Of a stretch of 43,732 nt of DNA, positions 402 through 42,600 are shown piece after piece. Position 1 is the stretch's first letter. Each line of letters begins with the position of its first letter. Source of the DNA: a virus. A program made the position numbers and the translations under genes. The notes beneath the pieces were generated by a model that saw only the letters and a program-made list of their open reading frames with translations, was not told the origin of the DNA and did no database searches. The stretch is from IMG/VR virus record IMGVR_UViG_3300025010_002037, positions 1-43,732 of that record. One strand, 5' to 3'.

Positions 402-2015
402 TTATTTGCAACTATTTTCATTAAAAACATGAAAAAAATAGAAGTTGGGAAATTTTACACCCCAACTTCTATTATAGAACCTTACTTTTAACATGTATAG
501 CGGAAACCCGACATTAGATACAGTAGCGACATTTATATTTGTCAATACTTCATAATTATCATCATTTATAGTTATTTTTTTAACATATTTTTGTATTATT
601 TCTTTTTGCTTTTTAGGCTCTAAGGTTTTTAAACTCTTTACAGCTTGCAAATCTTCTTTTATTTTATCTGTATCACGAGCGGCAGTTAGTTTGATTTTTT
701 CTTCTGCTATCATAACAACTAGATTATTTTTCTTATCTTCTAGTTCTGACATCTTGTCCTTCATTGCGGGGTTGTAAAATCCATTAGCAACAGCTTCGAC
801 TATGTTAGCTATTTGTTTTTCTGTATCTTTTAATTCCTTTTCGAATACAGTTATTTCACTTTTATATTCGCTTTTGAATTTTTCCAATTCTTTTTCTATA
901 TTTTTAAGTAATTTATCTATAGCGTCTTTATTAAAAAGTTTGGTTTCAAGTAATTCTATAACCGCATTCTCAATTTCATCTTTTTTAATTTCTTTCAAAG
1001 TACAATTACCTTTCTTTTTGTCACCACAAACGTATGACGAATATATACTATTTTTATTAGCACCACCTTTACGTGTGCTACCAGTCAATAGACTTCCGCA
1101 TTTTCCGCAATATAATTTACCAGCTAACAAATATATGTTTTCAACAGTATTAAAACTTCTAAATATTTTCTTATTTTTTTCTAACATAATTTCCACCTCG
1201 CTAAAAGTTTTTTTATCTATAATAATTGGGATAGCGTTATCAATAGTTATAATGACATCATCATTATTTTTTCTAAATATTTTTTTTCCTTGCTCTGTTT
1301 TTAAATTGTGAGTTTTATTAAAAACATATTTACCTGTGTATTTCTCATTTTTTAGTATAGAGTATATTGATGTATGAGTAAAATTTTTATTACTTCTTGT
1401 TTTATAACCTTTTTCTTTTAATATTTTACATATAGTCCTATAGCCTGTCCCTTTTAAATATTCGCTAAATATAAAACGTACTATAAAAGCCTCATGCTCA
1501 TTTATAACGTAGTTATTATCACTATCTGTATCATAACCAAGTGGAAGTATTCCCCCGTTAAATTTAGCTTTGTATGCATTTTCTTTTAAACCTTTCATTA
1601 CCTCTCTTGCTAGGTTTCTTGAATAATATTCAGCGAATGCTTCAATACTGCTTTCAAGTATGATACTTTCAGGGCTATCATCTATACGTTCTAGTACTGA
1701 TACTATTTTTATACCTAGCAGTTTTAATTTACGTTTGTATACCGCACTGTCATATCTATCACGGAATATTCTATCAAGCTTGTGAACTATTATATAATTT
1801 ATACCTATTGAATTTTTGGTGTCAACTAGTAGGTTGATCATCTTCTGAAAATTAGTTCTATTATCTGTTGTTGCTGATTCTGCTCTATCAACGTATATTT
1901 GCATTATTTGAGTATTGTTATCAGATGCATATTTTTCTATCTCTCTTATTTGTGCTTCTATTGACTCTTCCCGTTGCCCTCTACTACTAAACCTACAATA
2001 AGCGAATGCTTTCAT
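402..2015 (-). CDS. Large serine recombinase (phage integrase)
   Basis: This enzyme should integrate and excise the prophage. The 537-residue protein has an N-terminal resolvase domain with the catalytic serine in YCRFSSRGQ (Ser10) and the conserved arginine region HKLDRIFRDRYD, then a recombinase domain (GGILPLGYDTD; GTGYRTICKILKEKGY), a zinc ribbon (LYCGKCGSLL ... YVCGDKKKGNC) and a lysine/glutamate-rich coiled coil, the order usual for large serine integrases. ATG 2015 follows CGGAGGTGGT. The attL core (496-508) lies inside the gene: the last 30 residues, after NVGFPLY, are read from chromosomal DNA, including the old tRNA terminator. In the excised circle the frame would continue instead to YTVATTIIRNKK and stop, giving about 519 residues. 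The first gene of the lysogeny module, transcribed away from the lytic genes. Confidence 0.95.
   Translation of the reverse strand: MKAFAYCRFSSRGQREESIEAQIREIEKYASDNNTQIMQIYVDRAESATTDNRTNFQKMINLLVDTKNSIGINYIIVHKLDRIFRDRYDSAVYKRKLKLLGIKIVSVLERIDDSPESIILESSIEAFAEYYSRNLAREVMKGLKENAYKAKFNGGILPLGYDTDSDNNYVINEHEAFIVRFIFSEYLKGTGYRTICKILKEKGYKTRSNKNFTHTSIYSILKNEKYTGKYVFNKTHNLKTEQGKKIFRKNNDDVIITIDNAIPIIIDKKTFSEVEIMLEKNKKIFRSFNTVENIYLLAGKLYCGKCGSLLTGSTRKGGANKNSIYSSYVCGDKKKGNCTLKEIKKDEIENAVIELLETKLFNKDAIDKLLKNIEKELEKFKSEYKSEITVFEKELKDTEKQIANIVEAVANGFYNPAMKDKMSELEDKKNNLVVMIAEEKIKLTAARDTDKIKEDLQAVKSLKTLEPKKQKEIIQKYVKKITINDDNYEVLTNINVATVSNVGFPLYMLKVRFYNRSWGVKFPNFYFFHVFNENSCK
431..472 (-). terminator. Chromosomal terminator displaced from tRNA-Met
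   Basis: A perfect 12-bp stem (ATAGAAGTTGGG at 438-449 with CCCAACTTCTAT at 461-472, 11-nt loop) is followed on the minus strand by seven T. In the empty site this hairpin would stand about 24 bases after the tRNA-Met 3' end, so it is probably the original tRNA terminator. In the lysogen it sits inside the extended 3' end of the recombinase gene. Confidence 0.75.
496..531. other. attL: left prophage boundary
   Basis: The 13-bp core TATAGCGGAAACC (496-508) also occurs at 42588-42600; flanking bases differ on both sides (G versus A to the left, C versus G to the right). To the right, on the phage side, lies the arm TACAGTAGCGACA (519-531), the exact reverse complement of the phage-side arm at attR. 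To the left is chromosome that carried the sequence downstream of tRNA-Met. Confidence 0.88.
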
Positions 2016-2090
2016 TATCTACCACCTCCGATGAAAAAAATAATAAAATATAACAAGGTATAATTAAATGTTAAATTTCATAAAATAGTA

Positions 2091-2118
2091 TTGACATTAT
2101 ATGAATTTATGCTACAAT
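2091..2118 (+). promoter_or_regulatory. Sigma-A-type promoter for small membrane gene
   Basis: TTGACA (2091-2096), 16-bp spacer, TACAAT (2113-2118). It points to the right, toward the gene at 2216, opposite to the recombinase, with transcription expected to begin near 2125. Confidence 0.6.
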
Positions 2119-2129
2119 ATAATTAACTC

Positions 2130-2190
2130 AACAGCTGGCAGTACATTACTTGTTTAGTAGTGTCCTAATACACCAGTTGTTCATTTTTTT
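2130..2190 (+). terminator. Leader hairpin with T-run (possible attenuator)
   Basis: AACAGCTGG (2130-2138) pairs with CCAGTTGTT (2173-2181) with one G-U pair, followed by CA and seven T (2184-2190). It lies between the promoter at 2091 and the start codon at 2216, so transcription must pass it to reach the gene. The 34-base loop is long for a plain terminator, leaving room for an alternative fold. Confidence 0.4.
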
Positions 2191-2215
2191 AAGTATTGAG
2201 TGGGGGCGAATAACT

Positions 2216-2473
2216 ATGAAAACAACGTACAAAATATTGCATTATGTAAGTAAGATAAATATGTATCTGTTAGTATATTTTGTTATTGCGTTCACAATTA
2301 AGCTAGTTACGTTTTTTATATTAAAATCATTAGATTTTCAAAAGATAGTAATATTTGAAACATTTTATTTGGATGAAATTATAATATTAGTAGCTTCTTT
2401 AATAGTTGTGTTAAGATTATTAAAGAATAAAAGTATAGAAATATCATCACCTTATGAAAAATATATACATTAA
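2216..2473 (+). CDS. Small two-helix membrane protein
   Basis: ATG 2216 follows a GGGGGCG ribosome site; an upstream in-frame ATG at 2150 has no such site and lies inside the leader hairpin. The 85-residue product has two hydrophobic segments (about residues 15-38, MYLLVYFVIAFTIKLVTFF, and 51-67, IIILVASLIVVLRLL) and a short charged tail. It is transcribed convergently with the frameshifted gene ending at 2477, only 3 bases away. No family recognised. Its own promoter and position beside the recombinase suggest expression in the lysogen. Confidence 0.6.
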   Translation: MKTTYKILHYVSKINMYLLVYFVIAFTIKLVTFFILKSLDFQKIVIFETFYLDEIIILVASLIVVLRLLKNKSIEISSPYEKYIH

Positions 2474-2476
2474 TGA

Positions 2477-3527
2477 TTAAGATTCTTCAGAATCTGAAAT
2501 TTGTTTTGGAATTTCTATTTTTAATTTTTGTATAGAATCATTTAGGCTATTTTCAATAGCCTCTTTTTTATTTCTGTATTGATTATCCTGAATAGCTTGA
2601 TAAAATTTAAGAATTTTTTCTATAAGTCCATCAGTATTTACATCAGTATTCAAATTACAAGTTTGCTTGTTAGCAGCAAACTTAATTTTTATATTTCCTC
2701 CGACAATAAATGCGCATACAACCGTAAAAACAATACCTGATAATATAGGTAAAATAAGTTCAACGTTGCCAGGAGAATTTAAAGTTAATTTAATATCCAA
2801 TTCATTTTTTGAAAAATCACTGTCAGTTAATTCATTAAATAGTTGTATTAGCTGAGAAGGAGAGTTTATAAAATTTACTAATTCTGTAGCTCCTATATTG
2901 TTAGTTGTTTTAACATCAAATACTAAATGTAGCTTATTATCTTTTAAATATAATTCATGCATAGTCCTATCTATAAAGGTAGAATAAGCATTAGCATTAG
3001 ATATTGCGCCATGTGAAAACATTAATCGGTATAAGTATGGATATAGATTATCCCTTTTTGTATCGGCTAACCACTTTACATTTCTTCTTTTTTTTATAAT
3101 TACATTTTTCATATGAAACATCGTCTATGTATTCCTCTAACTCGCTACTTGTATTTTCGTATATATAGTATTCATCTTCTAAAATTTCTCCAAAAGCAAT
3201 AAGATCAGAATTAATACTAGGTATTAATACAATATCACCTTTCTTCATGTCAAACATAAATCTTCTTATTTGATTGGCTGTTTGGCCAGGTCTAATATCA
3301 TTTTTATAAATATTTTTAATTTGTTCTTTTAGCACATCAAATGAAAGGCTCTTTATTTGTTCTGAATCACTAAGTTCATCCCATCCAATTGAAATATACT
3401 TACTGAAGTAGAAGTCCTTAAAAAATTTACCACTTTCCGTTCTGACAAACCAGTAATTCGTATTGATATTGATTTCAGGAATATTAAATATATTCAATAT
3501 TTGTTGTAACTCATCATTATCTCCCAT
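2477..3527 (-). pseudogene. PUA-like sensor domain plus membrane domain protein, frameshifted
   Basis: Two overlapping frames read as one protein. The upstream part (ATG 3527, after AAAGGATG) has the pattern YWFVR, YISIGWDEL, KGDIVLIPS and LIAFGEILE, resembling the PUA/EVE-like N-terminal domain of Mrr/McrB-type restriction proteins and related effectors. It then runs into a run of eight A (T8 at 3088-3095 on the plus strand), where it changes to KKKKKC and stops at 3048. The downstream frame continues the expected sequence from KKRRNVKWL and goes on for about 200 residues, with a hydrophobic helix (ILPILSGIVFTVVCAFIVGG) and a charged C-terminal helix. Seven A would restore one protein of about 350 residues. 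It is either a mutation, a phase-variable tract or a sequencing error. Function unknown; a nucleic-acid or modified-base sensor joined to a membrane effector is an inference. Confidence 0.7.
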
Positions 3528-3555
3528 TATTATCATCCTTTCTTATCTTTAGTGT

Positions 3556-3581
3556 AAAAAGAGCGGTGAGTACTCTTTTTT
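3556..3581 (-). terminator. Hairpin between FxLYD gene and PUA-like gene
   Basis: AAAAAGAG (3556-3563) pairs with CTCTTTTT (3573-3580) around a 9-base loop, with a T-run on both strands. On the minus strand it overlaps the stop codon of the gene at 3580 and may limit read-through into the PUA-like gene. Confidence 0.5.
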
Positions 3582-4068
3582 AATATCCCGATTCAAATTG
3601 TACTTTATAAGTTTTAACATATTTATAATAAGCATTAAAGTCAATTTTAAAAGTCTTAGTTTCTCCTGAATTTATATTATCAATGTATATATTTTGTGTA
3701 TCTAATAGCTTACCTTTTTGGTCATATACAGTAAAAATAAATTTAGTAGTTGAATAATTTTTATTAGATTTGTTTTTTATTTCTCCTAATACAGTTAAAT
3801 AGTCTGTATCGTAAGCATTATATGAAACATCTTTATTCGTAATATTGCCATAATAAAAACCATGTCCAGCATTTAAATTTATTTCAGTACTGTTGTAATT
3901 TTCTGAATCAATATCATAGATATCAATTTGTGATATAAATTCTTTACTGCTTTGAGTATTGATATTACTTGTTTGAATTGATTTTTCGGGCTGGGGGAAT
4001 AATATTACCGCAATAATTCCTACTACAATAACACTTGAAAATAACTGGGGTAATCCTAATAATGCCAT
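3580..4068 (-). CDS. Membrane-anchored FxLYD-type protein
   Basis: The 162-residue product begins with a hydrophobic segment (LPQLFSSVIVVGIIAVILF) that should anchor it or act as a signal, then a low-complexity serine/asparagine linker and a C-terminal beta-sandwich pattern typical of FxLYD domains (LGEIKNKSNKNY, FIFTVYDQKGKLLDTQ, NSGETKTFKIDF). The ribosome site AAGGAG (4084-4079) best fits ATG 4068; in-frame GTG codons at 4077 and 4074 are alternatives. It lies in a minus-strand cluster with two small genes upstream. Exact role unknown; a surface-exposed lysogenic conversion protein is plausible. Confidence 0.65.
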   Translation of the reverse strand: MALLGLPQLFSSVIVVGIIAVILFPQPEKSIQTSNINTQSSKEFISQIDIYDIDSENYNSTEINLNAGHGFYYGNITNKDVSYNAYDTDYLTVLGEIKNKSNKNYSTTKFIFTVYDQKGKLLDTQNIYIDNINSGETKTFKIDFNAYYKYVKTYKVQFESGY

Positions 4069-4098
4069 ATTCACCACTCTCCTTATTATATTTTAGTA

Positions 4099-4308
4099 TT
4101 AAGATTTTAAACCCGCATCTATTATAACTATGCCTATGTATATTCCAAAAAATAAAATTAAAAAATTAAAAAAATACGTGTTTGACATTTCGGTTGTAAT
4201 CGTATTTATTGATTTTAAATAAACTCGTACTCCGTCAAAAATATGCCCAATTATTGTTGCTGCTATTATTGAACTTCCTAGAGATAATAATAACAATCTT
4301 TTATTCAT
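4099..4308 (-). CDS. Small membrane protein, two helices
   Basis: A 69-residue product with hydrophobic segments LLLLSLGSSIIAATIIG and FFNFLILFFGIYIGIVII. ATG 4308 follows AAGGGTGGTGG at good spacing; GTG 4320 and 4317 overlap that site and are unlikely starts. It is followed 30 bases later by the FxLYD gene, so they are probably co-transcribed from the promoter at 4652-4679. No family recognised. Confidence 0.6.
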   Translation of the reverse strand: MNKRLLLLSLGSSIIAATIIGHIFDGVRVYLKSINTITTEMSNTYFFNFLILFFGIYIGIVIIDAGLKS

Positions 4309-4338
4309 ATTTGCCACCACCCTTATTATCTTTATTTT

Positions 4339-4593
4339 TTATGCTATACTGCTTAACCTCTCAAAATCGTTAATGGTAAATATTAAGAGGGTTTCATCAT
4401 TTTTAATTAGCTTGTTAAATATTATTACTGCTTCGGAGACAAGTGTTTCGGAAAAACCATTATTAAAATATAGTATTTGTATATCTGTTTTTACATATAT
4501 GCATATTATCCAATTTGGTAATATACAAGATTTACTTACATATCCTAAATCCGAAAAAAACTTTTGAAACGTTGTTAAAAAACTAGTGTTCAT
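4339..4593 (-). CDS. Unknown 84-residue protein
   Basis: First gene of the minus-strand lysogenic cassette, with a strong site (AAGGAGAGGACGAT) before ATG 4593 and a promoter 59 bases upstream. The product has two cysteines, a mixed alpha/beta pattern and no clear membrane helix or motif. It reads as a real gene because of promoter, ribosome site and spacing, but I do not recognise it. Confidence 0.6.
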   Translation of the reverse strand: MNTSFLTTFQKFFSDLGYVSKSCILPNWIICIYVKTDIQILYFNNGFSETLVSEAVIIFNKLIKNDETLLIFTINDFERLSSIA

Positions 4594-4651
4594 ATCGTCC
4601 TCTCCTTATGGTGTAATATTGTATATATGACAAAATATGACATATATCGAC

Positions 4652-4679
4652 ATTATATCACGGGAAAGTAACTTGTCAA
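4652..4679 (-). promoter_or_regulatory. Promoter of the lysogenic cassette
   Basis: On the minus strand TTGACA (4679-4674), 16-bp spacer, TATAAT (4657-4652): close to consensus. Just downstream the repeat TGTCATAT occurs twice (GATATATGTCATAT, then TTTGTCATATAT, about 4620-4647), a possible operator. This promoter is separate from the repressor promoter. Confidence 0.75.
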
Positions 4680-4766
4680 TAGGTTTCGTTATTAAGTGTA
4701 AAATTACAGACATGAACGGCAATAAAAAAATTTGCTATTTACAGTTCATTAGTAAATCTCTACATT

Positions 4767-5168
4767 TCATTCGATTTTTGCGTTTTTCACGATACTGTGT
4801 CCAAGTTTGAAAGCATTTATTAACATTTCTTTTTCGGCTTCTGTCAATACTAATTTATCTCCTGTAGCAGATACCAGTTCATTGTTATTTACTTGTTGAA
4901 TTAGATTGTTAAGTTGGTCATTTGCATTTGAAGGATTTTCTTTAATTTCTTCTTTATCTTCCATTAAATCAGATTTTAATATTCCGAAATAATCCGCCAA
5001 CATTTGCATTTTATCTATTCTTGGATATTTTTTACCATTGCACCAAGAAGATATAGTTGCCGACGGAAGTTTTAGTTCATTCATTAAATCTATTTGAGTT
5101 TTATCTTTTAAAAACATCCATCTTTTTAAATTTCTTGAAAAAATCTTTTTCTGTCCTGTATTATCCAT
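4767..5168 (-). CDS. CI-like phage repressor (XRE family HTH)
   Basis: Likely keeps the lytic promoter silent. The 133-residue product has an N-terminal helix-turn-helix of the XRE type (about residues 9-65: FSRNLKRWMFLKDKTQIDL, LPSATISSWCNGKKYPR, LADYFGI), then a glutamine/asparagine-rich linker and a short C-terminal helical segment (TEAEKEMLINAFKL). There is no peptidase S24 domain, so RecA-type self-cleavage is not expected. ATG 5168 after AGAGGTGAT is preferred over the upstream in-frame start at 5192, which overlaps the promoter. It is divergent from the Cro-like gene across a 133-bp switch region. Confidence 0.9.
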   Translation of the reverse strand: MDNTGQKKIFSRNLKRWMFLKDKTQIDLMNELKLPSATISSWCNGKKYPRIDKMQMLADYFGILKSDLMEDKEEIKENPSNANDQLNNLIQQVNNNELVSATGDKLVLTEAEKEMLINAFKLGHSIVKNAKIE

Positions 5169-5190
5169 AAAGATCACCTCTTTTTTACAC

Positions 5191-5219
5191 ATTATACACC
5201 TTTATAAAGAAAAAAGCAA
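5191..5219 (-). promoter_or_regulatory. Repressor promoter
   Basis: On the minus strand TTGCTT (5219-5214), 17-bp spacer, TATAAT (5196-5191), 23 bases before the repressor start. It is back-to-back with the lytic promoter; operator O1 begins 17 bases upstream of its -35. Confidence 0.7.
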
Positions 5220-5235
5220 CATTTTTTAAAAAAAA

Positions 5236-5272
5236 TCTTACTTTTGGTATTGACATCTTACTTAAAGTGTGA
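5236..5272 (+). promoter_or_regulatory. Switch operators O1 and O2
   Basis: O1 (5236-5252, TCTTACTTTTGGTATTG) and O2 (5256-5272, TCTTACTTAAAGTGTGA) share the half-site TCTTACT and have degenerate second halves. Their spacing is 20 bp, about two helical turns, placing them on one face. They overlap the -35 and the spacer of the lytic promoter. The third copy (5509-5525) is a nearly perfect palindrome and defines the site. Confidence 0.7.
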
Positions 5273-5278
5273 TAATAT
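5250..5278 (+). promoter_or_regulatory. Lytic (early right) promoter
   Basis: TTGACA (5250-5255), 17-bp spacer, TAATAT (5273-5278), followed 24 bases later by the Cro-like start. Operator O2 fills the spacer, so bound repressor should block polymerase. Confidence 0.8.
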
Positions 5279-5301
5279 ATGTTATAGAAAGGAGGGATAA
5301 A

Positions 5302-5508
5302 ATGTCAAGTGTACCATTCAAAATATCATTAGCAGCAGCTAGAGTAAATGCGGGATTAACTCAAGAAGAAGTTGCAAAAGCTATAAATAAGAACAAAGCG
5401 ACAATAGTAAGTTATGAGAAAGGTGAAACAATACCAACATATGATATTGTTGAAAAATTAGAAAAACTTTATGGAATATGTAAGGATTATATTTTTTTTG
5501 GGAAATAA
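5302..5508 (+). CDS. Cro-like XRE family regulator
   Basis: A 68-residue single-domain helix-turn-helix protein: ISLAAARVNAGLTQEEVAKA, INKNKATIVSYEKGETIPTY, VEKLEKLYGI, all typical XRE positions. ATG 5302 follows AAAGGAGGG; the longer frame from 5269 begins inside the promoter -10. First gene of the lytic operon and divergent to the repressor, so the Cro role is the natural assignment. Operator O3 begins at the base after its stop codon. Confidence 0.9.
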   Translation: MSSVPFKISLAAARVNAGLTQEEVAKAINKNKATIVSYEKGETIPTYDIVEKLEKLYGICKDYIFFGK

Positions 5509-5525
5509 TCTTACTAATAGTAAGA
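5509..5525 (+). promoter_or_regulatory. Operator O3, palindromic
   Basis: TCTTACTAATAGTAAGA: arms TCTTACT and AGTAAGA are perfect reverse complements around three bases. It matches the half-sites in the switch and lies directly after the Cro-like gene, where a bound repressor could act as a roadblock or loop to O1/O2. Confidence 0.65.
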
Positions 5526-5577
5526 AAAGAGTGTGCTGGAATTACATAAGGTATTGAATTTTAAGGAGGTATCTTAA

Positions 5578-5852
5578 GTGGATATGAAAGATGTAGAAAA
5601 CATTGTAGGAAGAAAAACAATAATAACTCAAGATGGAGAATTTATAGTAGATGAAAATGTACCAATGTTAGTAGAAGCAGCTAAACATGAAGGTAAATTA
5701 TTTGGATTTAATTTAATGGGTATCGTAGCGGAAATGTTAACAAATCAATAATATTAGGAACATTTGATACATCAGAAAAAGCACAAAAAATACGTAAAGA
5801 AATATGGGATTGTAAAACAATATATTATATACCTGAAGAAGATGATGAATAA
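5578..5852 (+). pseudogene. Small early phage gene, apparently frameshifted
   Basis: GTG 5578 (or ATG 5584) follows AAGGAGGT and encodes 57 residues (VENIVGRKTIITQDGEFIVD ... NLMGIVAEMLTNQ) to a stop at 5751. From about 5717 another frame reads GYRSGNVNKSIILGTFDTSE, continues EKAQKIRKEIW and ends EEDDE at 5852, a pattern (LGtydT-EkA) usual at the C-terminus of small phage proteins, but it has no start codon of its own. The simplest reading is one gene of about 90 residues broken near 5710-5720. The upstream part may still be made. Confidence 0.5.
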
Positions 5853-5898
5853 ACATGATGAATGAATATATGAGAAAAATCAAAGGAGAGCGATTTTT

Positions 5899-6057
5899 AT
5901 GTTAACAGTGACAATAGAAAGAGGCACAGGAAAAGTATTAAAGGAATATGATGATGGACAAGTTAATGCAGAAGTTGACGAATGGCTAGCGAAGTTTTTA
6001 GCGAGGATTATATACGAAAAAGAAAAGGATGTGAAGAACATTGAAAAAGCTAGTTAA
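5899..6057 (+). CDS. Small early phage protein
   Basis: A 52-residue acidic/helical protein (MLTVTIERGTGKVLKEYDDG ... EWLAKFLARIIYEKE) with a strong ribosome site AAAGGAGAGCG before ATG 5899. It overlaps the next gene by 17 bases. No family recognised; its place in a run of tightly packed early genes supports it as real. Confidence 0.6.
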   Translation: MLTVTIERGTGKVLKEYDDGQVNAEVDEWLAKFLARIIYEKEKDVKNIEKAS

Positions 6058-6238
6058 TAACCCCAATTATTTTATACTATTCTGGGATCATAGCCAAGAA
6101 AAAGAAATACAAGGCTTTGAAGAAAGAACGACGTTAGAAGAGGCAAAGAGGGTTGAAAGTAGTCTAAAGCAAGATTACCCAAAAATAGAAGTTAGAATAC
6201 TTTTTAATGCTACTGAAATAGTAGATGAGGAGGAGTGA
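6041..6238 (+). CDS. Small early phage protein
   Basis: A 65-residue protein from a TTG start inside the 3' end of the previous gene, so translation is probably coupled. Sequence pattern FILFWDHSQEKEIQGFEE then a helix TTLEEAKRVESSLKQDY and a beta strand, similar in form to small phage proteins of unknown function. Acidic C-terminus (EIVDEEE). Confidence 0.6.
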   Translation: MKKLVNNPNYFILFWDHSQEKEIQGFEERTTLEEAKRVESSLKQDYPKIEVRILFNATEIVDEEE

Positions 6239-6241
6239 CTT

Positions 6242-6376
6242 ATGAGGATAGAAGAACAAATAAAACAAATATCTAAAATGAGTTGCAAAGAGTTGGTAAA
6301 AAAGATGATGGAGGATTATAGGAAAAAGGCATTAAAAGAAGCATATGAAAAAGTATCTGCAAAAGCAGAAAAATGA
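6242..6376 (+). CDS. Small charged helical protein
   Basis: A 44-residue lysine/glutamate-rich product (MRIEEQIKQISKMSCKELVK ...), predicted fully helical. ATG 6242 follows GAGGAGGAGTGACTT, part of which is the end of the preceding gene. Function unknown. Confidence 0.5.
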   Translation: MRIEEQIKQISKMSCKELVKKMMEDYRKKALKEAYEKVSAKAEK

Positions 6377-6388
6377 AAGGAGATACAA

Positions 6389-6568
6389 ATGAAAAGATTT
6401 TTAGAGAGGTTAGCGTGGACAAGCTTGTTATTATATATTTTGTACAAAGTTTTTGATTGTGTAATGACTGCACCTGGTGTGGATGACGGGGGATGTTTTT
6501 TAACAGTAGTATTTATATTACCAATTGCACTACTAAGTGGAGTGTATACAATATGGTTAGCAAGATGA
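6389..6568 (+). CDS. Small membrane protein, two helices
   Basis: A 59-residue product with hydrophobic segments LAWTSLLLYILYKVF and LTVVFILPIALLSGVYTIW around a short polar loop (TAPGVDDGG). AAAGGAGAT lies 5 bases before ATG 6389. Only membrane protein in the early block; role unknown. Confidence 0.55.
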   Translation: MKRFLERLAWTSLLLYILYKVFDCVMTAPGVDDGGCFLTVVFILPIALLSGVYTIWLAR

Positions 6569-6592
6569 CCAGAAAATAATTGAGAGGGGGTG

Positions 6593-6817
6593 ATGAATGT
6601 GATTAGAGGAAAGCAATACCTAGAAATTAAAGAAGCAGCTAGTCGATTTATAGAGGATCAGGATAAAGATAATAAATTAGTAGAGTTTGTAGAAGTTCAG
6701 ATAAAAGAGAATAGTAATCTATTTAAAGAAACAGTTTTGAGAGCTATACATGAAGGTCTAGCTGAGGGATTAAAAAAGCTACATTCTGCAGGAACAGAAT
6801 ATAGCGAAAGTATTTAA
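6593..6817 (+). CDS. Small early phage protein
   Basis: A 74-residue helical protein (IRGKQYLEIKEAASRFIEDQ ... FKETVLRAIHEGLAEGL). Ribosome site GAGAGGGGG directly precedes GTG 6590/ATG 6593; GTG 6599 with better spacing is a possible start. No family recognised. Confidence 0.55.
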   Translation: MNVIRGKQYLEIKEAASRFIEDQDKDNKLVEFVEVQIKENSNLFKETVLRAIHEGLAEGLKKLHSAGTEYSESI

Positions 6818-6886
6818 TAATTGTTTCACAAAATAATCATAACACAACTAAAATAAAAAATCAAATAAAAAGGAGAATTTAAGATT

Positions 6887-7072
6887 ATGGATGAAAAAGA
6901 ATTTATAGTAAAGAAATTTAATAACTTTGTGACAAGCGAGGTAGCTGGATTTTTAGAAAAATACAGCTTGGATAAAGTACAAATTGTAGATGAAAATGGA
7001 AACAAGGCAAAAATAACACGAGATAAAGATAATAACTTAGTTATTGAAACAACAACAAAAGAAATTTATTAA
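6887..7072 (+). CDS. Small early phage protein
   Basis: A 61-residue protein: helical first half (FIVKKFNNFVTSEVAGFLEK), then a beta-hairpin pattern (VQIVDENGNKAKITRDKDNN). AAAAAGGAGAA precedes ATG 6887. Unknown function. Confidence 0.6.
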   Translation: MDEKEFIVKKFNNFVTSEVAGFLEKYSLDKVQIVDENGNKAKITRDKDNNLVIETTTKEIY

Positions 7073-7091
7073 AAAAGGAGAATTTTAAATT

Positions 7092-7292
7092 ATGGAGAAA
7101 GGTTGCAAATATTGTAAAGAAAACAGTCAGGAATATATTAAGGCTTTTCCTAATAGGAAGTTATATGTGATAACAGAAGATGGCGAAAATAAAATAGCTA
7201 TAGCAGTAGAAAATGAGTGCATAGGGTTATTTAATATTGATTATTGCCCGATGTGCGGGAAAAATTTAAAGGGGGACACAAACAATGGATGA
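7092..7292 (+). CDS. Small zinc-ribbon protein
   Basis: A 66-residue protein with CKYC near the N-terminus and CPMCGKNL near the C-terminus, the two halves of a zinc ribbon, with beta strands between. Such proteins are common in Firmicutes phages. AAAAAGGAGAA precedes ATG 7092; the 3' end overlaps the next gene by 8 bases. Confidence 0.65.
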   Translation: MEKGCKYCKENSQEYIKAFPNRKLYVITEDGENKIAIAVENECIGLFNIDYCPMCGKNLKGDTNNG

Positions 7293-9634: not shown

Positions 9635-9646
9635 GAGAAAAAGACT

Positions 9647-11569: not shown

Positions 11570-11581
11570 AGGTGGTAACAG

Positions 11582-13981: not shown

Positions 13982-13982
13982 G

Positions 13983-27017: not shown

Positions 27018-27019
27018 TT

Positions 27020-29088: not shown

Positions 29089-29098
29089 GGTGTTTTAA

Positions 29099-29602: not shown

Positions 29603-29611
29603 GGTGATTTT

Positions 29612-30181: not shown

Positions 30182-30185
30182 TAGT

Positions 30186-30542: not shown

Positions 30543-30544
30543 TC

Positions 30545-31063: not shown

Positions 31064-31072
31064 GTGAATTAA

Positions 31073-32170: not shown

Positions 32171-32184
32171 GAGGAGGAATAAAA

Positions 32185-32619: not shown

Positions 32620-32632
32620 GAGGAGAAGGTTT

Positions 32633-34748: not shown

Positions 34749-34750
34749 AA

Positions 34751-35323: not shown

Positions 35324-35325
35324 TT

Positions 35326-35658: not shown

Positions 35659-37084
35659 TTGGCAGGAGATGGCGATTAGTGAAGCAAATAAACAGAGTTG
35701 TGATAAAGATATAGTATTGGCGACAATAGAAGCAGAAACAGGCGGTCGTAACGTAATGGGAGACAGTGATCACGCTTACGGATATGGACAAGTATGGTAT
35801 AAATGGCATAAAGAAGCTTTTGATTTTGCAGCTAAAAGATTAAATGTATCGTATCCTCAGGCAGATGGACCAAGCCTAAAACAATTTATTTTGAGTAATA
35901 ATTTATTTTCGATGATAGTAACAGTAAAAACTATAAAAGATATTTGGTTAGGGCAAAGCAAAAATTGGCATGATTTTACGTTATCATATGTAGGACCCAA
36001 AATACCCACATCAGATTACAACCGTAGATACAAAATATGGCTGAAATATCACGACGGAAAAGATATATCATCAACTATATCAACTACTCCCAATACTTTA
36101 TATTCTACGGATAACTATGCAAGCGTAGAAGAACCTACTATTTATAAAGTGGATGCAATGAGCCAAGAATACGGTGACATTTTATACGGTAGAAAATACC
36201 GAGTACTAATATCGAATAATGGGGATACCGCTCTAGATGTATCACGGTTGCGTTGCACATTTAATATAGTAAAAACCGTACTAATGCAACCTAATTACTG
36301 TGAAGTGGTTATTTACAACCTCAATGCAGAAACAGAGAATGCGATCATAAAAGAAGGGATGCGAATACTTGTTGAAGCGGGATATGAAGGAGAACAGTAT
36401 GGGGGAATATTTGATGGTGATTTATTACAGCCTATCAGAGAAAAAGAAGATGGTACTACATTTAAATTAACTTTATCTTCTTTAGATGGTGATAAATTTC
36501 TTCAATTTGGTTTCTCTAACTTTTCTATTCTGAGAGGTCAATCAATGCGTGATATGGTATACGATTTAACGCAAAATACAGAAATTAGTACAGGTTTAGG
36601 GAGTATATCAGAAGACCTAAACACATCGCAGCTCACAAGAGGTAAGGTGGTTTTTGGGCTTGCTAAAAATGTATTAAGACAAGTTGCACAAACAAATTCG
36701 GCTACGTTCTATATGGAAGATGGAAAAGTAAATATAATAAAAGCTACAGATATACAAGAGGATAGAGTAATTGAACTTTCCCCTACTACTGGACTTATAG
36801 GAACACCTTCACAATATGAATACGGTGTTATTGCTAAGTGTCTTTTAAATCCACGTATTAAATTAAATAGCTTAATACATATAGATAATTCATTAATTCG
36901 TGCTAGAAAGGCAGAAAATGGAGAGGTTCTAAGAAGCTTAGACGACGATGGATTATATAGAGTAATTAAGATTACGCACATAGGAGATACTCGTGGGAAT
37001 GACTGGTATACAGAAGTAGAAACAGTCACACAAAGTGGTATACTTCCTAACATGGCTTCTACAGCTTATACAAATATATGGTGA
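35651..37084 (+). CDS. Baseplate hub fused to lysozyme-like domain
   Basis: 477 residues. N-terminal 140 residues look like a soluble lytic transglycosylase (SCDKDIVLATIEAETGGRNV, the catalytic Glu in EAETGG, DHAYGYGQVWYKWH, LSYVGPK). After a Thr/Ser linker the hub begins (YGRKYRVLISNNGDTALDVS, CEVVIYNLNAETENAIIKEG), continuing with SLDGDKFLQFGFS and RGQSMRDMVYDLTQ. The virion therefore carries a cell-wall enzyme at the hub to open peptidoglycan during injection. ATG 35651 is preferred; GTG 35642 is also in frame. Confidence 0.8.
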   Translation: MSSWQEMAISEANKQSCDKDIVLATIEAETGGRNVMGDSDHAYGYGQVWYKWHKEAFDFAAKRLNVSYPQADGPSLKQFILSNNLFSMIVTVKTIKDIWLGQSKNWHDFTLSYVGPKIPTSDYNRRYKIWLKYHDGKDISSTISTTPNTLYSTDNYASVEEPTIYKVDAMSQEYGDILYGRKYRVLISNNGDTALDVSRLRCTFNIVKTVLMQPNYCEVVIYNLNAETENAIIKEGMRILVEAGYEGEQYGGIFDGDLLQPIREKEDGTTFKLTLSSLDGDKFLQFGFSNFSILRGQSMRDMVYDLTQNTEISTGLGSISEDLNTSQLTRGKVVFGLAKNVLRQVAQTNSATFYMEDGKVNIIKATDIQEDRVIELSPTTGLIGTPSQYEYGVIAKCLLNPRIKLNSLIHIDNSLIRARKAENGEVLRSLDDDGLYRVIKITHIGDTRGNDWYTEVETVTQSGILPNMASTAYTNIW

Positions 37085-37094
37085 GGTGATACAT

Positions 37095-37646
37095 ATGTCA
37101 AAAACAATAAGTGAATTAGTAGGCGGAATGGATGATTTGTTTAGAATTTTTGGTGATACATTAAATAATAAATTAAGGGTAGCCATACCATGCTTAGTAC
37201 ATTCATTTGACCCTAATACACAAACAATAACCGCACAACCAGTGCTACGTGAAAATATACGTAAACCAGATTTAACTACGGAGTGGGTGCAGTTACCTCT
37301 ATTATTAGATGTGCCAATAGTGCTACCACGAGCAGGAAATTTTGTTATGACTATGCCAGTAGCTGTTGGAGATGAATGTTTAGTTATTTTTGCTGATATG
37401 TGTATAGATGCCTGGTATTCAAATGGCGGCATTCAAAATCAAATAGAAAAACGTAGGCACGATTTATCTGATGCAATTGCTATTTTAGGAATCTGGAGTC
37501 AACCAAATAAAATAAGTGATTATTCTACAGATTCAACACAGTTAAGAACGTTCGACGGTACATCATATATAGAGTTAAAAGATAATGAAATAAACCTTGT
37601 AGCTAGTAGCGTAAAGGCTAATGGGAGGAGTGTGTTAACTTCATGA
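37095..37646 (+). CDS. Baseplate spike, Gp138 N-terminal-like
   Basis: 183 residues: LRVAIPCLVHSFDPNTQTIT, AQPVLRE, LPLLLDVPIVLPRAGNFVMT, MPVAVGDECLVIFAD, the OB-fold pattern of Gp138/Gp5-type spikes, then a short beta tail. ATG 37095 follows GTGAGGTGATACAT; the upstream in-frame codon at 37035 is inside the hub gene. Confidence 0.82.
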   Translation: MSKTISELVGGMDDLFRIFGDTLNNKLRVAIPCLVHSFDPNTQTITAQPVLRENIRKPDLTTEWVQLPLLLDVPIVLPRAGNFVMTMPVAVGDECLVIFADMCIDAWYSNGGIQNQIEKRRHDLSDAIAILGIWSQPNKISDYSTDSTQLRTFDGTSYIELKDNEINLVASSVKANGRSVLTS

Positions 37647-37990
37647 GTGTTAAATACAGAAGATTAATAAATGGGGATTATAGCTTTGGCAGAAATAATG
37701 GAGATTTTCTCACAGGAATAGATGCAGTTAGTCAAGCAATCAGAACAAGACTTTTATTACTTAAAGGTGAGTGGTGGGAAGACACAGAACAGGGTCTGCC
37801 TTTATTTCAGAGCATTTTAGGGCAATATGAAACCCAGCCTATAGACTTACTTGTTCAAGATACTATTTCAAATACAAAAGATGTTATAAATATAGTTAAT
37901 TTTGAGAGTACATATAAAAATAGAACGTATTCGGTGTCGTGTACAGTTGATACAAAATACGGACAAGCTTATTTGGAGGTGACTTTATAA
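37643..37990 (+). CDS. Baseplate wedge, gp25/gpW-like
   Basis: 115 residues: DFLTGIDAVSQAIRTRLLLL, KGEWWEDTEQGLPLFQSILG, a clear gp25-like pattern. Its start overlaps the spike stop (ATGA). Connects sheath and baseplate in contractile phages. Confidence 0.85.
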   Translation: MSVKYRRLINGDYSFGRNNGDFLTGIDAVSQAIRTRLLLLKGEWWEDTEQGLPLFQSILGQYETQPIDLLVQDTISNTKDVINIVNFESTYKNRTYSVSCTVDTKYGQAYLEVTL

Positions 37991-39166
37991 ATGGCTTATT
38001 TTTCACCATATATAGATGAAACAGGTTTGCATTTACCTACATATTCGGATATACGTGATCAACTTATATCTGATGCAAAGAATATATTCGGACAAGATAT
38101 ATATTTAGAAATAGATTCACAGGATTACCAATGGATTAGCTCAGTAGCTGAAAAAATATATGATTCATTTCAGCTGTTACAACAAGTATATAATAGTAGA
38201 AGTCCACAAACATCAGTAGGGGTAGCACTTGACAGTATGGTTAAATTAAATGGATTATCAAGAAAATCTGGAACACCGTCAACATGCTTAGTAACGATAA
38301 CTGGCACAGCAGGAACTATAATTAATAACGGAGCAGTAGCTGATATAAATTATAACAAATGGAATTTGCCTACAAGTGTGACGATACCAGTCGGTGGTAT
38401 TATAGATGTAACAGCGACTTGCCAGACAGAGGGGACTATTGTGGCTAATATAGGAGATATCACAACAATAACGACTCCAACGTATGGTTGGACTTCTGTG
38501 TATAATCTAGTAGCAGCAGTCGTGGGAACTAATCAAGAAACTGATTCAGAGTTACGAGCTAGGCAATCAGTTAGTACTTCGATTTTAAGTAAAACATTAC
38601 TTGAAGGCACTAAAGCCACTTTACTTGCGGTATCAAATGTAACACGACTTGCGGTCTATGAGAACGATACAAACTCAACTGATTCTGATGGATTGCCAGC
38701 TCATAGTATAACATGTGTAGTAGAGGGCGGAACCGATACAGATGTAGCAACAGCAATTTACTTAAACAAAGGTATTGGAGCTTATACAAATGGGGATCAA
38801 GAAATAACTATAACGGATTCATTTGGGCAAGATACGGTAATTAGATTTTACAGACCTACATATAAATCAATAGACGTTGTTGTGAACGTAAAAGCCCTAA
38901 CAGGATATACAACCGATATAACAGCTCAGATAAAGCAAAATCTAGTAGACTATTTAAACGGTATGCAGATTGGGGATAATTTATCTATATCTTCTTTATG
39001 GGGTATATCGCTTACAGCTATGCCAGACTTAAAAACTCCTATGTTCTCTATAACAAGCTTAACAGCAGGACTACATGGAGGTTCACAAGGTACATCAGAT
39101 ATAGTAATAAGTTATAAAGAAGTGACACAAGGTGTACTTGCAAATATAACAGTGAATGTAACGTAA
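37991..39166 (+). CDS. Baseplate J-like protein
   Basis: 391 residues: YIDETGLHLPTYSDIRDQLI, SVAEKIYDSFQLLQQVYNSR, VALDSMVKLNGLSRK, ETDSELRARQSVSTSILSKT. Typical J-like wedge protein, starting directly after the gp25-like gene. Confidence 0.92.
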   Translation: MAYFSPYIDETGLHLPTYSDIRDQLISDAKNIFGQDIYLEIDSQDYQWISSVAEKIYDSFQLLQQVYNSRSPQTSVGVALDSMVKLNGLSRKSGTPSTCLVTITGTAGTIINNGAVADINYNKWNLPTSVTIPVGGIIDVTATCQTEGTIVANIGDITTITTPTYGWTSVYNLVAAVVGTNQETDSELRARQSVSTSILSKTLLEGTKATLLAVSNVTRLAVYENDTNSTDSDGLPAHSITCVVEGGTDTDVATAIYLNKGIGAYTNGDQEITITDSFGQDTVIRFYRPTYKSIDVVVNVKALTGYTTDITAQIKQNLVDYLNGMQIGDNLSISSLWGISLTAMPDLKTPMFSITSLTAGLHGGSQGTSDIVISYKEVTQGVLANITVNVT

Positions 39167-39178
39167 GGAGGCGTATAA

Positions 39179-39787
39179 ATGGCAAATGATAAATATCTGG
39201 GTGTGATAACCTCTGAACATAACGAACAACCGAATTTTGTATCCTGGTTGACAAATGTATTAAATAAAGTGGAAGATGTTTATAGTTTGAATATAGATTT
39301 TGACATAGATACAGCAGTTGGAAGCCAGTTAGATATAATAGGAGAAGTACTAGGAAGAAATAGAACTCTAACATTTCAACCGACCGACGGGTCAAGTTCA
39401 ATTTTAGATGATAAATCGTATAGAACATATTTGAAAGGTAAGGTACTCCAAAATCAATGGGATGGTACGATTAATGGACTGGCAGTTATACTTAATACTA
39501 TGTATCCTGATTATGTAATAACAATTGTAGATAACCAAGATATGACGATGACGGTTACGATAATAGGTAATGTAACCGTGTTAGAGATTGACTTGATACA
39601 ATACCATTACTTTATGCCGAAGCCAGCAGGAGTGAACGTGACTTTTAGTTTGCCGATAGGAACACTTGATTTGGTAGATGTAACAATAGTAGATGGTGAA
39701 TACGTACCAATTATAGATAACGATACAGGGCTAGGAGATATAGAAAACCTAGATATAGGTGGAACTTTATCGGGAGTAATAAACTAG
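39179..39787 (+). CDS. Baseplate/tail protein, DUF2612
   Basis: 202 residues: VSWLTNVLNKVEDVYSLNID, FDIDTAVGSQLDIIGEVLGR, RTYLKGKVLQNQWDGTINGL. Usual position after the J-like protein; probably links wedge to fibres. AGGAGGCGTATAA precedes ATG 39179. Confidence 0.85.
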   Translation: MANDKYLGVITSEHNEQPNFVSWLTNVLNKVEDVYSLNIDFDIDTAVGSQLDIIGEVLGRNRTLTFQPTDGSSSILDDKSYRTYLKGKVLQNQWDGTINGLAVILNTMYPDYVITIVDNQDMTMTVTIIGNVTVLEIDLIQYHYFMPKPAGVNVTFSLPIGTLDLVDVTIVDGEYVPIIDNDTGLGDIENLDIGGTLSGVIN

Positions 39788-39801
39788 AAAGGGGAGATTA
39801 T

Positions 39802-40338
39802 ATGGGATTACTAAAATGGGATAATGCTGGGGTAGAACCCACAGAGGGAAAGAAAGTAGCAGGATTTCAAATCGGAGAAAAACCGCCGGCTGATTATTTT
39901 AACTGGTTATTTAATAAAATAATCAATGTATTAAATTTGAGTGCGAGCAAAACAGGAACAGAGACACTAGAAAATAAAACATTGGAAGCGTCAATAGTTA
40001 ATACTCCTACCATAAAAAACTACAATGAGACTGTAAATATACTAGGAAGTAAAACAGGATCAGTTGTCATTGATTTAGAACTAGGAAACGTAGTATCAAT
40101 GACAGTAGCGGGTGCGATCAATTTATCATTTGCTAATCCACCAGACACAGGATACGCGGGGAGTGTAGTGTTATTCGTTACCAACCAAGGAACTAATATA
40201 ACCTTCCCATCAAGTGTAAAGTGGCATTTAGGAATTAAACCAACATTCTCTACGGCAGGTTTAGATATTCTAGTTTTCACAACAATAGATGGCGGAATAA
40301 CATGGCACGCCCAATTGTCGACAAAAGGAAGTGCATGA
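39802..40338 (+). CDS. Tail fibre protein
   Basis: 178 residues. N-terminal LKWDNAGVEPTEGKKVAGFQ and KPPADYFNWLFNKIINVLN are usual at the start of Firmicutes tail fibres; the C-terminal part is beta-rich (VSMTVAGAINLSFANPPDTG). AAAGGGGAGATTAT precedes ATG 39802. Confidence 0.75.
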   Translation: MGLLKWDNAGVEPTEGKKVAGFQIGEKPPADYFNWLFNKIINVLNLSASKTGTETLENKTLEASIVNTPTIKNYNETVNILGSKTGSVVIDLELGNVVSMTVAGAINLSFANPPDTGYAGSVVLFVTNQGTNITFPSSVKWHLGIKPTFSTAGLDILVFTTIDGGITWHAQLSTKGSA

Positions 40339-40342
40339 TGAT

Positions 40343-41209
40343 ATGTTAGGACTAAATATGATGCGAAATAAAAGAATGATTATACCAAGTCAAGTAGAAT
40401 ATATTACACCTGGTACTTATTATTGGGTAGTTCCGGAAAATGTTGAATCTATTTGTGCTGTATTAGTAGGTGGTGGAGGCGGCTCTTCTGACGAGCTAGG
40501 TTCTGGTGGTGGAGGATTAAGATGGATTAATAACCTCCCGGTGGTACCAGGAAGTCAATTGACGGTTGTTGTAGGTGCTGGAGGAAATGGTTCTATTGGT
40601 TCTGATGGTGAGAGTAGTTACATATATAAAAATGGTTATAGTCAGCTTGTATTATACGCCAAAGGTGGCACTGGCTCAAGCGACAATGGAGAGGGTGACG
40701 AAGGAATTGGAGGAACAGGTTCAACTATTGGTGTTGGTGCTTACGGTGGTACTATAGGTGGGGGTAATGGGGGCAACGGTGGTGGTTATCACGAAGGCAG
40801 ACCTACTGGAGGCGGAGGTGCAGGAGGTTACTCTGGTAATGGTGGTCGAGGTGGTAACGGAGCATACGGTTCTAGTGCTGGTAGTGGAGGAGCTGGAGGC
40901 GGTGGAGGCTATGGCAGTGACACATATACACCTGGTGCTGGTGGAGGAGTAGGAATATATGGACAAGGTAGTGATGGATATGCAGGAAATGATGTAGGAG
41001 GAGGAAATCCGCCTACAGGCGGTGGAGGTGGCTCTGGAGGTGAAGCTGGAGGTAGGGCAACTAATCCGGGGGTTTCTGGAGGTTTATATGGTGGTGGTGC
41101 TGGTGGTACTAGAGATTCTGCTGATTACTCTAGCGGAGCCGGCGGAGCCGTAAGAATAATATGGGGAGAAGAAAGAGCCTTCCCAACTACCAATACCGGA
41201 AATTTATAA
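40343..41209 (+). CDS. Glycine-rich tail fibre tip / adhesin
   Basis: 288 residues. An N-terminal beta region (GTYYWVVPENVESICAVLVG) leads to a 200-residue segment made largely of Gly with Ser, Asn, Tyr and Ala (GGNGGNGGGYHEGR, GGGGAGGYSGNGGRGGNG) and a conserved end (GAGGAVRIIWGEE). This resembles adhesins with packed polyglycine II helices, as in S16 gp38. Probably the receptor-binding tip, with variable loops between glycine runs. Start is uncertain: ATG 40343, or GTG 40331 next to AAAGGAAG. Codons are GG-rich and locally raise GC. Confidence 0.75.
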   Translation: MLGLNMMRNKRMIIPSQVEYITPGTYYWVVPENVESICAVLVGGGGGSSDELGSGGGGLRWINNLPVVPGSQLTVVVGAGGNGSIGSDGESSYIYKNGYSQLVLYAKGGTGSSDNGEGDEGIGGTGSTIGVGAYGGTIGGGNGGNGGGYHEGRPTGGGGAGGYSGNGGRGGNGAYGSSAGSGGAGGGGGYGSDTYTPGAGGGVGIYGQGSDGYAGNDVGGGNPPTGGGGGSGGEAGGRATNPGVSGGLYGGGAGGTRDSADYSSGAGGAVRIIWGEERAFPTTNTGNL

Positions 41210-41253
41210 ATAAGTAATTTAATACTATAAACTAATCTAAGGAAGGTGCAGAC

Positions 41254-41637
41254 ATGGATAAAATAATAGAATTTCTCATAGCTAACCCGTTTTGGTTAGT
41301 ATTTTTATTTGTAGCGATAGTAGTAGCAATGATCGTAGGAGGTACGTTATACTTAAAATTAAAGGCTCCTAATAGCCAAAATTGTACTATTGAACCGTGC
41401 TTTTATAAAGATAAATTTAATGAAGGTGCAGGTGATATAAAAAATTTAGCTACAGAAATAAATACTGGAAATAAATTAATAGAAGCTACAAATAAAAAGA
41501 TAGAAGATAACGCAAAAGAACATAGGGAAGCTTTTGCTCAACTGATAGCAAAAAGCGAAAGGCAAAACGAGGTGCTTGCTAAAATTAGCACGCAATTAGA
41601 TATGCAAAATCAATTATTGTTAAGTAAATTAAAATAG
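41254..41637 (+). CDS. Membrane protein with coiled coil, lysis-associated
   Basis: 127 residues: one N-terminal membrane helix (FWLVFLFVAIVVAMIVGGTL), two cysteines, then a long helical coiled coil (IKNLATEINTGNKLIEATNK ... EVLAKISTQLDMQNQLLLSK). Resembles hemolysin XhlA- or Bhl-like accessory proteins next to holins. AAGGAAGGTGCAGAC precedes ATG 41254. Confidence 0.65.
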   Translation: MDKIIEFLIANPFWLVFLFVAIVVAMIVGGTLYLKLKAPNSQNCTIEPCFYKDKFNEGAGDIKNLATEINTGNKLIEATNKKIEDNAKEHREAFAQLIAKSERQNEVLAKISTQLDMQNQLLLSKLK

Positions 41638-41711
41638 CAAGAATGTGATAGATAAGCCCCGGCCAGACATTTTAAAGGCAGGCCATAAATTAAAACAGGA
41701 GAGTGATACAT

Positions 41712-41900
41712 ATGCAAAACAGGTTTAAAAGTAAAATATTATGGTTATCATTAGCAAGTGCAGTAATAGCTTTTTTAGTTAATGCAGGAGTAATAGATAC
41801 AGGCATGTCAGATACATTAACACAAGGTGTAAATACATTAACAACAATACTTGTAGCAGTAGGTATATTAAACGTTCCTACAGACCCTAACAAATTTTAA
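41712..41900 (+). CDS. Phage holin
   Basis: 62 residues: basic N-terminus (MQNRFKSKILWLS), membrane helices LASAVIAFLVNAGVI and LTTILVAVGIL, and the C-terminal motif VPTDPNKF that matches the phi-LC3-type holin ending (GILxDPTT). GGAGAGTGATACAT precedes ATG 41712. It forms lesions releasing the endolysin encoded 13 bases downstream. Confidence 0.8.
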   Translation: MQNRFKSKILWLSLASAVIAFLVNAGVIDTGMSDTLTQGVNTLTTILVAVGILNVPTDPNKF

Positions 41901-41912
41901 GGAGTTGATAAT

Positions 41913-42470
41913 ATGAGTCAAGCATGCAGAGATTTAAATGAGTTGCTACCGTACGTAAAAGAGTTAGCACAGCAGTTGGTTGCAAAATGTAGCCAAATTG
42001 GAGTACCAATATGTATAACTGAAACATATAGGTCTCAGGAGCGACAGAATGAGCTGTACAAGCAAGGTAGGACTACAAAAGGACAAATAGTAACATGGAC
42101 TAAAAACAGCAAGCATATAACACGTAGAGCATTTGACTTTGTACCTTTGAAAAACGGACAAGCAGACTGGAATGATTTAAGTAAATTTAAACGAGTTGCC
42201 GATATCGGGAAAACGTTAGGACTCACGTGGGGAGGGGATTGGTCTACACCAGACCGTCCTCATTTTCAATATGATGGAGCAATACCAGAGGAGGCGAAGA
42301 AAGTGGAAGAAGTTAAAGTAGAACAACCAGTACAACCACACTATGCAGAACCGGCATTTGATTTTTTAAATGCTAATGGTGTAGTGGTGCATGAAAAGAA
42401 TTTTGATGCACCTATCAAACGTGGCGATATTATGATATTGCTAGCTAGAATGAAAGGGTATCAAGGTTAG
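41913..42470 (+). CDS. Endolysin, M15 peptidase with C-terminal SLH-like segment
   Basis: 185 residues. Zinc-peptidase (L-Ala-D-Glu/VanY type): PICITETYRSQERQNELY, Ser-x-His at SKHITRRAFDF (His68, Asp75), and GGDWSTPDRPHFQ (His117). A Val/Glu/Lys/Pro linker (about residues 125-142) joins a 35-residue C-terminal segment (PAFDFLNANGVVVHEKNFD, RGDIMILLARM) that looks like one SLH repeat, probably for wall binding. Cleaves the peptide stems of peptidoglycan. AAGGAGTTGATAAT precedes ATG 41913. Confidence 0.9.
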   Translation: MSQACRDLNELLPYVKELAQQLVAKCSQIGVPICITETYRSQERQNELYKQGRTTKGQIVTWTKNSKHITRRAFDFVPLKNGQADWNDLSKFKRVADIGKTLGLTWGGDWSTPDRPHFQYDGAIPEEAKKVEEVKVEQPVQPHYAEPAFDFLNANGVVVHEKNFDAPIKRGDIMILLARMKGYQG

Positions 42471-42527
42471 GGTGATGTAGCAAGTGTCCAGAGTTCTGGA
42501 CAAATAACTCCGGACATTAGGACAAAT

Positions 42528-42556
42528 AAAAGTAGCCCGTAACCGGGCTACTTTTT
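42528..42556. terminator. Bidirectional terminator at the right prophage end
   Basis: Perfect 12-bp stem AAAAGTAGCCCG (42528-42539) with CGGGCTACTTTT (42544-42555), 4-base loop TAAC, with T-runs on both strands. Rightward it ends the lysis/late transcript. Leftward it now ends tRNA-Met transcription in the lysogen, and in the excised phage would end the recombinase gene, whose alternative stop codon (42550-42548) lies within the stem. Confidence 0.88.
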
Positions 42557-42571
42557 ATTTCTTATTATAGT

Positions 42572-42600
42572 TGTCGCTACTGTATAATATAGCGGAAACC
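42572..42600. other. attR: right prophage boundary
   Basis: Phage-side arm TGTCGCTACTGTA (42572-42584), then TAA, then the core TATAGCGGAAACC (42588-42600), which is the 3' end of tRNA-Met on the minus strand. The arm is the exact reverse complement of the attL phage arm (519-531). Confidence 0.88.

Follow-up and report, generated by a model that had tools for sequence, protein, structure and literature searches.

The window analysed here, the 43,732 nucleotides of IMG/VR virus record IMGVR_UViG_3300025010_002037, contains a 42-kb prophage that looks intact and belongs to an anaerobic clostridial host. Judged by its genes, the phage appears to be temperate and contractile-tailed, and very probably it was integrated by its own large serine integrase at the 3′ end of a tRNA-Met gene, through exchange at a central AA dinucleotide. 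In the mechanism that we propose, the integrase would recombine a symmetric phage attachment site (attP) of ~52 base pairs (bp) with a bacterial site (attB) straddling the acceptor/T-stem junction of the tRNA-Met gene, strand exchange taking place at the central AA, which corresponds to tRNA positions 66/65. In phage half P the tRNA 3′ end is reproduced exactly to position 65; therefore the gene would be rebuilt at the right junction (attR), and the displaced 3′ end would be left at the left junction (attL). Since attP falls within the final codons of the integrase gene, integration would also swap a 12-residue tail for one encoded by the flank. The core, the arms, the tRNA copy, the integrase family, the overlap of gene and site, and the geometry in three relatives are all read directly from the DNA.

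The attachment core and the rebuilt attP

The elements of the attachment sites and the integrase gene are the following:
402..2015, minus strand: large serine integrase, prophage form, 537 amino acids, the last 30 codons from the left flank
496..506, no strand: attL copy of the true shared core TATAGCGGAAA; the CC at 507-508 is phage P′
505..506: predicted crossover dinucleotide AA (tRNA positions 66/65) in attL, from the symmetry centre and relatives
519..531, no strand: phage arm P′ TACAGTAGCGACA, within the integrase coding sequence
42572..42584, no strand: phage arm P TGTCGCTACTGTA
42588..42598, no strand: attR copy of the shared core, which rebuilds the tRNA-Met acceptor 3′ strand to position 65

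The 13-bp sequence TATAGCGGAAACC occurs exactly at 496-508 and 42588-42600. The direct repeat does not extend beyond it, and no third copy is present in the window, even when up to two mismatches are allowed. Joining the phage-side arms gives TGTCGCTACTGTA (42572-42584), 26 bp (taaTATAGCGGAAACCcgacattaga) and TACAGTAGCGACA (519-531), i.e., a perfect 13-bp inverted repeat, and the longest symmetric arm about the AA at 505/506 measures 14 bp. None of 20,000 shuffled sites reached a 13-bp arm (the largest was 12). These results confirm the core at both ends and the perfect inverted repeat that a preliminary description of this DNA had reported. An attP of ~50 bp with outer symmetric arms is of the kind used by large serine integrases. 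The window as given also contains one perfect 13-bp inverted repeat with a loop of 10-40 bp; it lies elsewhere, because attP is not contiguous in the window.

The product of the gene at 402-2015, the sole integrase found in the window, carries the Resolvase (PF00239), Recombinase (PF07508) and Zn_ribbon_recom (PF13408) domains and corresponds to PHROG 95 (integrase), which places it among the large serine integrases. A search for a tyrosine integrase (Phage_integrase, PF00589) gave no match in the window; the same search was positive in 14/14 control genomes. The three domains and this negative result support the serine integrase as the enzyme, as had been suggested at the outset.

Searches of 392 and 391 genomes (order and class of the nearest named genome, Clostridiales bacterium GWE2_32_10, G001) gave integrases with identities of up to 48%, and 60 integrase loci were examined. 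attP was rebuilt for three elements whose two ends lie on a single contig, two located in a transfer-messenger RNA (tmRNA) gene (G004 and G586) and one in a tRNA-Ala gene (G511). Their arms of ~11-12 bp, with one mismatch, lie 13-25 bp from the centre, and the centres are GA (G004), GA (G586) and AA (G511) at positions 66/65 of the tRNA or tmRNA gene (tDNA), the acceptor/T-stem junction; for G511, moving the centre one base onward gives the same score as AA. The symmetric ~50-bp attP centred on the AA at 505/506, proposed earlier for the window, is thus supported by the same geometry in three relatives. Furthermore, the identity of the phage copy to the host tDNA ends after position 65 in 4/4 elements (the window and the three relatives), as serine exchange at 66/65 together with selection for gene rebuilding predicts. 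For a further element (G742) no convincing attP was obtained, and its repeat seems to be part of another element.

The tRNA-Met target and the position of the crossover

Two further features define the target:
42590..42663, minus strand: tRNA-Met (CAT, elongator type), the attB gene (ARAGORN; Rfam RF00005, 50 bits)
42599..42600, no strand: anomalous CC, which is AG in the sister contig L177 (see below), equals phage P′ and produces two G·G mismatches in the T-stem

The 3′ end of this tRNA-Met gene is supplied by phage DNA, so that the target is a tDNA 3′ end. A scan of viral contigs with the P arm and core retrieved a sister contig of the same phage, L177 (IMGVR_UViG_3300025154_000725), which differs from the window by six mismatches and one 48-bp gap over 5,057 bp. 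Four of the mismatches are adjacent substitutions at 38487-38490 (GTTG/CCAC) and the gap lies at 37864, these differences being near and in the baseplate gene; the remaining two mismatches are positions 42599-42600, which read AG in L177 and CC in the window. The attR of L177, TATAGCGGAAAAGGGATTTGAACCCCCG, is an ordinary tRNA end with an intact T-stem. Together with the ARAGORN and Rfam call, it supports the assignment of attB to the tRNA-Met 3′ end in the preliminary description. Its AAAAGGG is found likewise in some uninterrupted tRNA-Met genes, and the AA, the predicted exchange dinucleotide, is common to attP and the L177 attR. In a tally of 38 tRNA-Met genes from relatives of the probable host, CC never occurs at this place (ACCGG against CCCCC), and in almost all of them the T-stem pairs. 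Because of the AG in L177 and the absence of CC from these genes, the phage/host identity amounts to the 11 bp TATAGCGGAAA (496-506 / 42588-42598) and not to 13. The 13-bp core originally described therefore stands as an exact repeat in the window, but not as the true identity between phage and host. Similarly, the crossover previously assigned to GGAAACC retains its central AA and is narrowed to GGAAA, the CC being phage sequence according to L177 and the relatives. The broken T-stem had first suggested a wrongly placed crossover, a discrepancy that L177 resolved.

The 13-bp core would also allow a crossover further right, at the CC itself (507-508 / 42599-42600), and CC is indeed found at both ends of the window. 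We consider this alternative very unlikely, given the AG in the L177 attR, the lack of CC in the tallied tRNA-Met genes (0/38), and the symmetry centre and three relatives, which place the exchange at 66/65.

With the exchange at the AA, the CC in the attR of the window has to come from elsewhere, either by mixing of attP reads during assembly or by conversion of attR. Either way, a molecule joining both phage ends would be involved, and the CC may be taken as a weak hint that a free phage form was present. As regards these two bases only, we regard an error in the assembly consensus, caused by reads of the free-circle attP mixed into attR, as the likelier origin when compared with true conversion. 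CC is exactly the attP sequence at this place, the mismatches are the first two bases past the junction, as expected from such mixing, and L177, which is the same over the remaining right end, has AG. On the other hand, the two contigs differ elsewhere too, at the four substitutions and the gap mentioned above.

A different possibility is that a tyrosine integrase of the host or of another element inserted the phage, the serine recombinase being incidental. tRNA 3′ ends are the classic target of tyrosine integrases, and the authors of Islander set serine integrases aside on the ground that targeting of tDNAs was known for tyrosine recombinases only (PMC4383910). Moreover, the CC at both ends could stem from a heteroduplex spanning a 7-bp overlap, GGAAACC. 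Yet no tyrosine integrase is present in the window, attP has the size and symmetry of the serine-integrase type and lies inside a serine integrase gene, the same geometry recurs in related serine integrases located at tDNA 3′ ends, and the AG in L177 indicates that CC is no regular product. Insertion by a tyrosine integrase is, in our opinion, extremely improbable. From the evidence of the sites we infer that the serine integrase of the phage is the catalyst, that AA is the exact dinucleotide exchanged, and that the element can be excised.

Several observations weigh against integration by the serine integrase at the AA. The attR of the window has CC and not AG beside the crossover, which a plain conservative exchange does not yield. 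Neither the viral-contig scans with the host flanks nor the comparison with the flanks of relatives revealed an unoccupied attB of this host. Positions 65-61 of tRNA-Met read GAGGG, not AAGGG, in the nearest sampled genomes, and for this reason attB is known only via its right half in L177. Finally, the closest integrases are 45-48% identical to the enzyme of the window. The viral-contig scans with the rebuilt attP arms, the P′ arm, the odd attR, and the left and right host flanks returned nothing, and a plasmid search with the host flank gave no match. The search for an empty site in related genomes, which had been recommended as a check, thus retrieved none of this host and no joined flanks, L177 providing an attR only. 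G001, which shares the insertion sequence (IS) next to attL, was excluded as an empty site, no elongator tRNA-Met being detected in it.

Overlap of attP with the integrase gene, and related systems

No stop codon interrupts the integrase reading frame within attP, so that the 3′ end of the gene overlaps the attachment site, a point that the preliminary description did not mention. When the phage ends are joined, the following feature is obtained:
42548..42587, minus strand: circle-form integrase end, deduced from the joined ends; it encodes the stop (plus-strand CTA, 42548-42550) and the greater part of the 12-residue tail

The circle form would have 519 amino acids and end in ...FPLYYTVATTIIRNKK followed by the stop, i.e., NVGFPLY-YTVATTIIRNKK. 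The prophage form has 537 and ends in ...NVGFPLY-MLKVRFYNRSWGVKFPNFYFFHVFNENSCK before its stop, this tail deriving mostly from the adjacent ISL3-type IS. As attP is inside the integrase 3′ end, the encoded C-terminus differs between the free and the integrated phage. The circle-form stop falls within a terminator-like hairpin at the right end of the phage. In the comparison with relatives, the conserved part of the integrase ends near residue 495, just ahead of the arm; this fading of similarity suggests that the tail is probably dispensable for catalysis. It is conceivable, though we think it rather unlikely, that a C-terminal tail of 12 residues followed by a terminator-like hairpin in the circle, versus 30 residues followed by host DNA in the prophage, acts as a switch of integrase behaviour before and after integration, and that such switches have arisen repeatedly in serine integrases adopting tRNA or tmRNA genes.

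The tDNA target recurs among the related integrases. At 22/60 loci the integrase gene ends at the 3′ end of an antisense tmRNA or tRNA gene (tmRNA; tRNA-Met, -Ala, -Gln, -Arg, -Ser and -Glu), and at 20 of these the integrase stop codon is inside the tDNA; on the other hand, no tDNA was present within 600 bp upstream of the integrase at any of the 60 loci. In a quick tree the window enzyme pairs with the G001 integrase (support 98), and the tDNA label needs 9 changes as compared to a shuffled mean of 20.9. Hence the tDNA-targeting enzymes are clustered, but a single clade is rejected. All 22 loci share one layout, in which the rebuilt tDNA and the integrase gene are neighbours whose 3′ ends face each other. 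The window departs from it: its integrase is at attL and its tRNA at attR, the core being inverted relative to the integrase. This inverted layout was sought in seven relatives without a neighbouring tDNA, where only repeats at noise level were found. By analogy with the phage A118 integrase, it would need only a flipped dinucleotide (AA vs. TT), since these bases alone set the orientation (PMC3556126).

Some individual loci deserve a mention. Two more distant serine integrases (L098 and L099), one of them a pseudogene, run into tRNA-Met 3′ ends and have apparently adopted this target independently. The integrase nearest by tree (L100, G001:C86) ends in a tRNA-Leu-like 3′ fragment of ~55 nucleotides without a 5′ half, perhaps a remnant of another element. 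In Moorella phage MCACPph1 (L067, OR602863.1), the annotated integrase C-terminus reads through a tRNA-like 3′ end (GGGGGSRTPVRR), and the end of the deposited protein may be prophage-flank sequence. Finally, L102 (G169:C29) has two tandem serine integrases, 12 kb apart and ~42% identical to that of the window, near a tmRNA gene, an arrangement which suggests stacked elements.

The preliminary description had implied that a tDNA target is new for a serine recombinase. This does not hold, both because it recurs among the relatives and because of DsiB, a serine recombinase of ~540 amino acids encoded by Dehalococcoides islands at the tmRNA gene ssrA (McMurdie et al., 2011; PMC3146451). The 3′ end of dsiB invariably extends into attL, the stop codon being located beyond the island, and the authors suggested that the enzyme may be fully functional only when encoded on the circle (PMC3146451). 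The window and these islands have in common a serine recombinase of similar size at a tDNA 3′ end and a gene overlapping the site. However, the DsiB systems are islands targeting tmRNA, whereas the window is a phage targeting tRNA; DsiB insertion is in the T-loop (333/334 of ssrA) and not at the acceptor/T-stem junction, and the Dehalococcoides islands have a second small recombinase, DsiA (PMC3146451). The likeness is therefore one of arrangement, and we do not claim family membership (kinship to DsiB or a DsiA-RecF-ParB-Mom module).

Other systems share single aspects. In streptococcal integrative and conjugative elements in rumA, a direct repeat also lies in the serine integrase gene and integration swaps its 3′ end and the C-terminus, but the target is protein-coding, with its own 3′ part exchanged, and the element is conjugative (PMC4701971). 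Listeria phage A118 likewise has a large serine integrase, an attP of ~50 bp and exchange at the central 2 bp, which alone set the orientation; its attB is in a comK-like gene, only 3 bp are common at the centres, and its attP is an imperfect palindrome, in contrast to the perfect arms of the window (PMC3556126). The islands formed in tDNAs by tyrosine integrases also rebuild the tRNA 3′ end and leave the displaced fragment at the other end, but their enzyme family is unrelated (PMC4383910). Phage KL3 (in tRNA-Thr) was considered as a precedent and set aside, as no attribution of its integration to a serine integrase was found.

Because of DsiB, the novelty is only moderate. The present analysis adds an example in a phage, tRNA-Met as a target and the inverted layout, as well as the constancy of the 66/65 position across four elements and a measure of how frequent the arrangement is among relatives. 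Our literature search, of partial coverage, found no description of the tDNA-targeting serine integrases as a whole group. Location at a tRNA or tmRNA 3′ end is generally regarded as a sign of a tyrosine integrase; the window and 22/60 relatives show that the use of such ends by serine integrases is common. Where both ends were rebuilt, the position is fixed at 66/65, and the halves and crossover can be read from the sequence alone, which provides a predictive rule for the attachment sites of this integrase group. Enzymes with such conserved-gene targets would be useful for integration vectors in anaerobes that are hard to manipulate. Furthermore, the overlap of attP and integrase makes the question raised in 2011, whether the exchanged end of the enzyme matters, directly testable.

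Prophage content and host

The remaining features are those of the phage body and its flanks:
507..42587, no strand: prophage body, with terminase, portal, major head, tail sheath, tape measure and baseplate genes, and further genes for DNA polymerase, primase-helicase, repressor and lysis peptidase
1..481, minus strand: left flank, end of an ISL3-type IS
43328..43732, plus strand: right flank, host spoVAA (sporulation protein AA)

Only ~14 bp of host DNA (482-495) separate the IS end from the core. The IS end (1-481) includes 67 bp at 100% identity to a contig end (L006) of G001. On the right, the spoVAA flank is 73-74% identical at the DNA level to G002 and G003, relatives of G001, and repeats of this flank are found again in G001, G002 and G003. 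The SpoVAA flank, the identity to G002 and G003, and the IS match to G001 lead us to place the host among spore-forming clostridial bacteria near G001. In G002, the gene directly upstream of spoVAA resembles sigF, which is not present at that place in the window. Between the tRNA and spoVAA of the window lies an element resembling a miniature inverted-repeat transposable element (42757-43158), with inverted terminal repeats (TCAGGATAAACTTATAAA, copies of cgagaaaaacactctcctcaggatgac), parts of which are present again in G001, G002 and G003.

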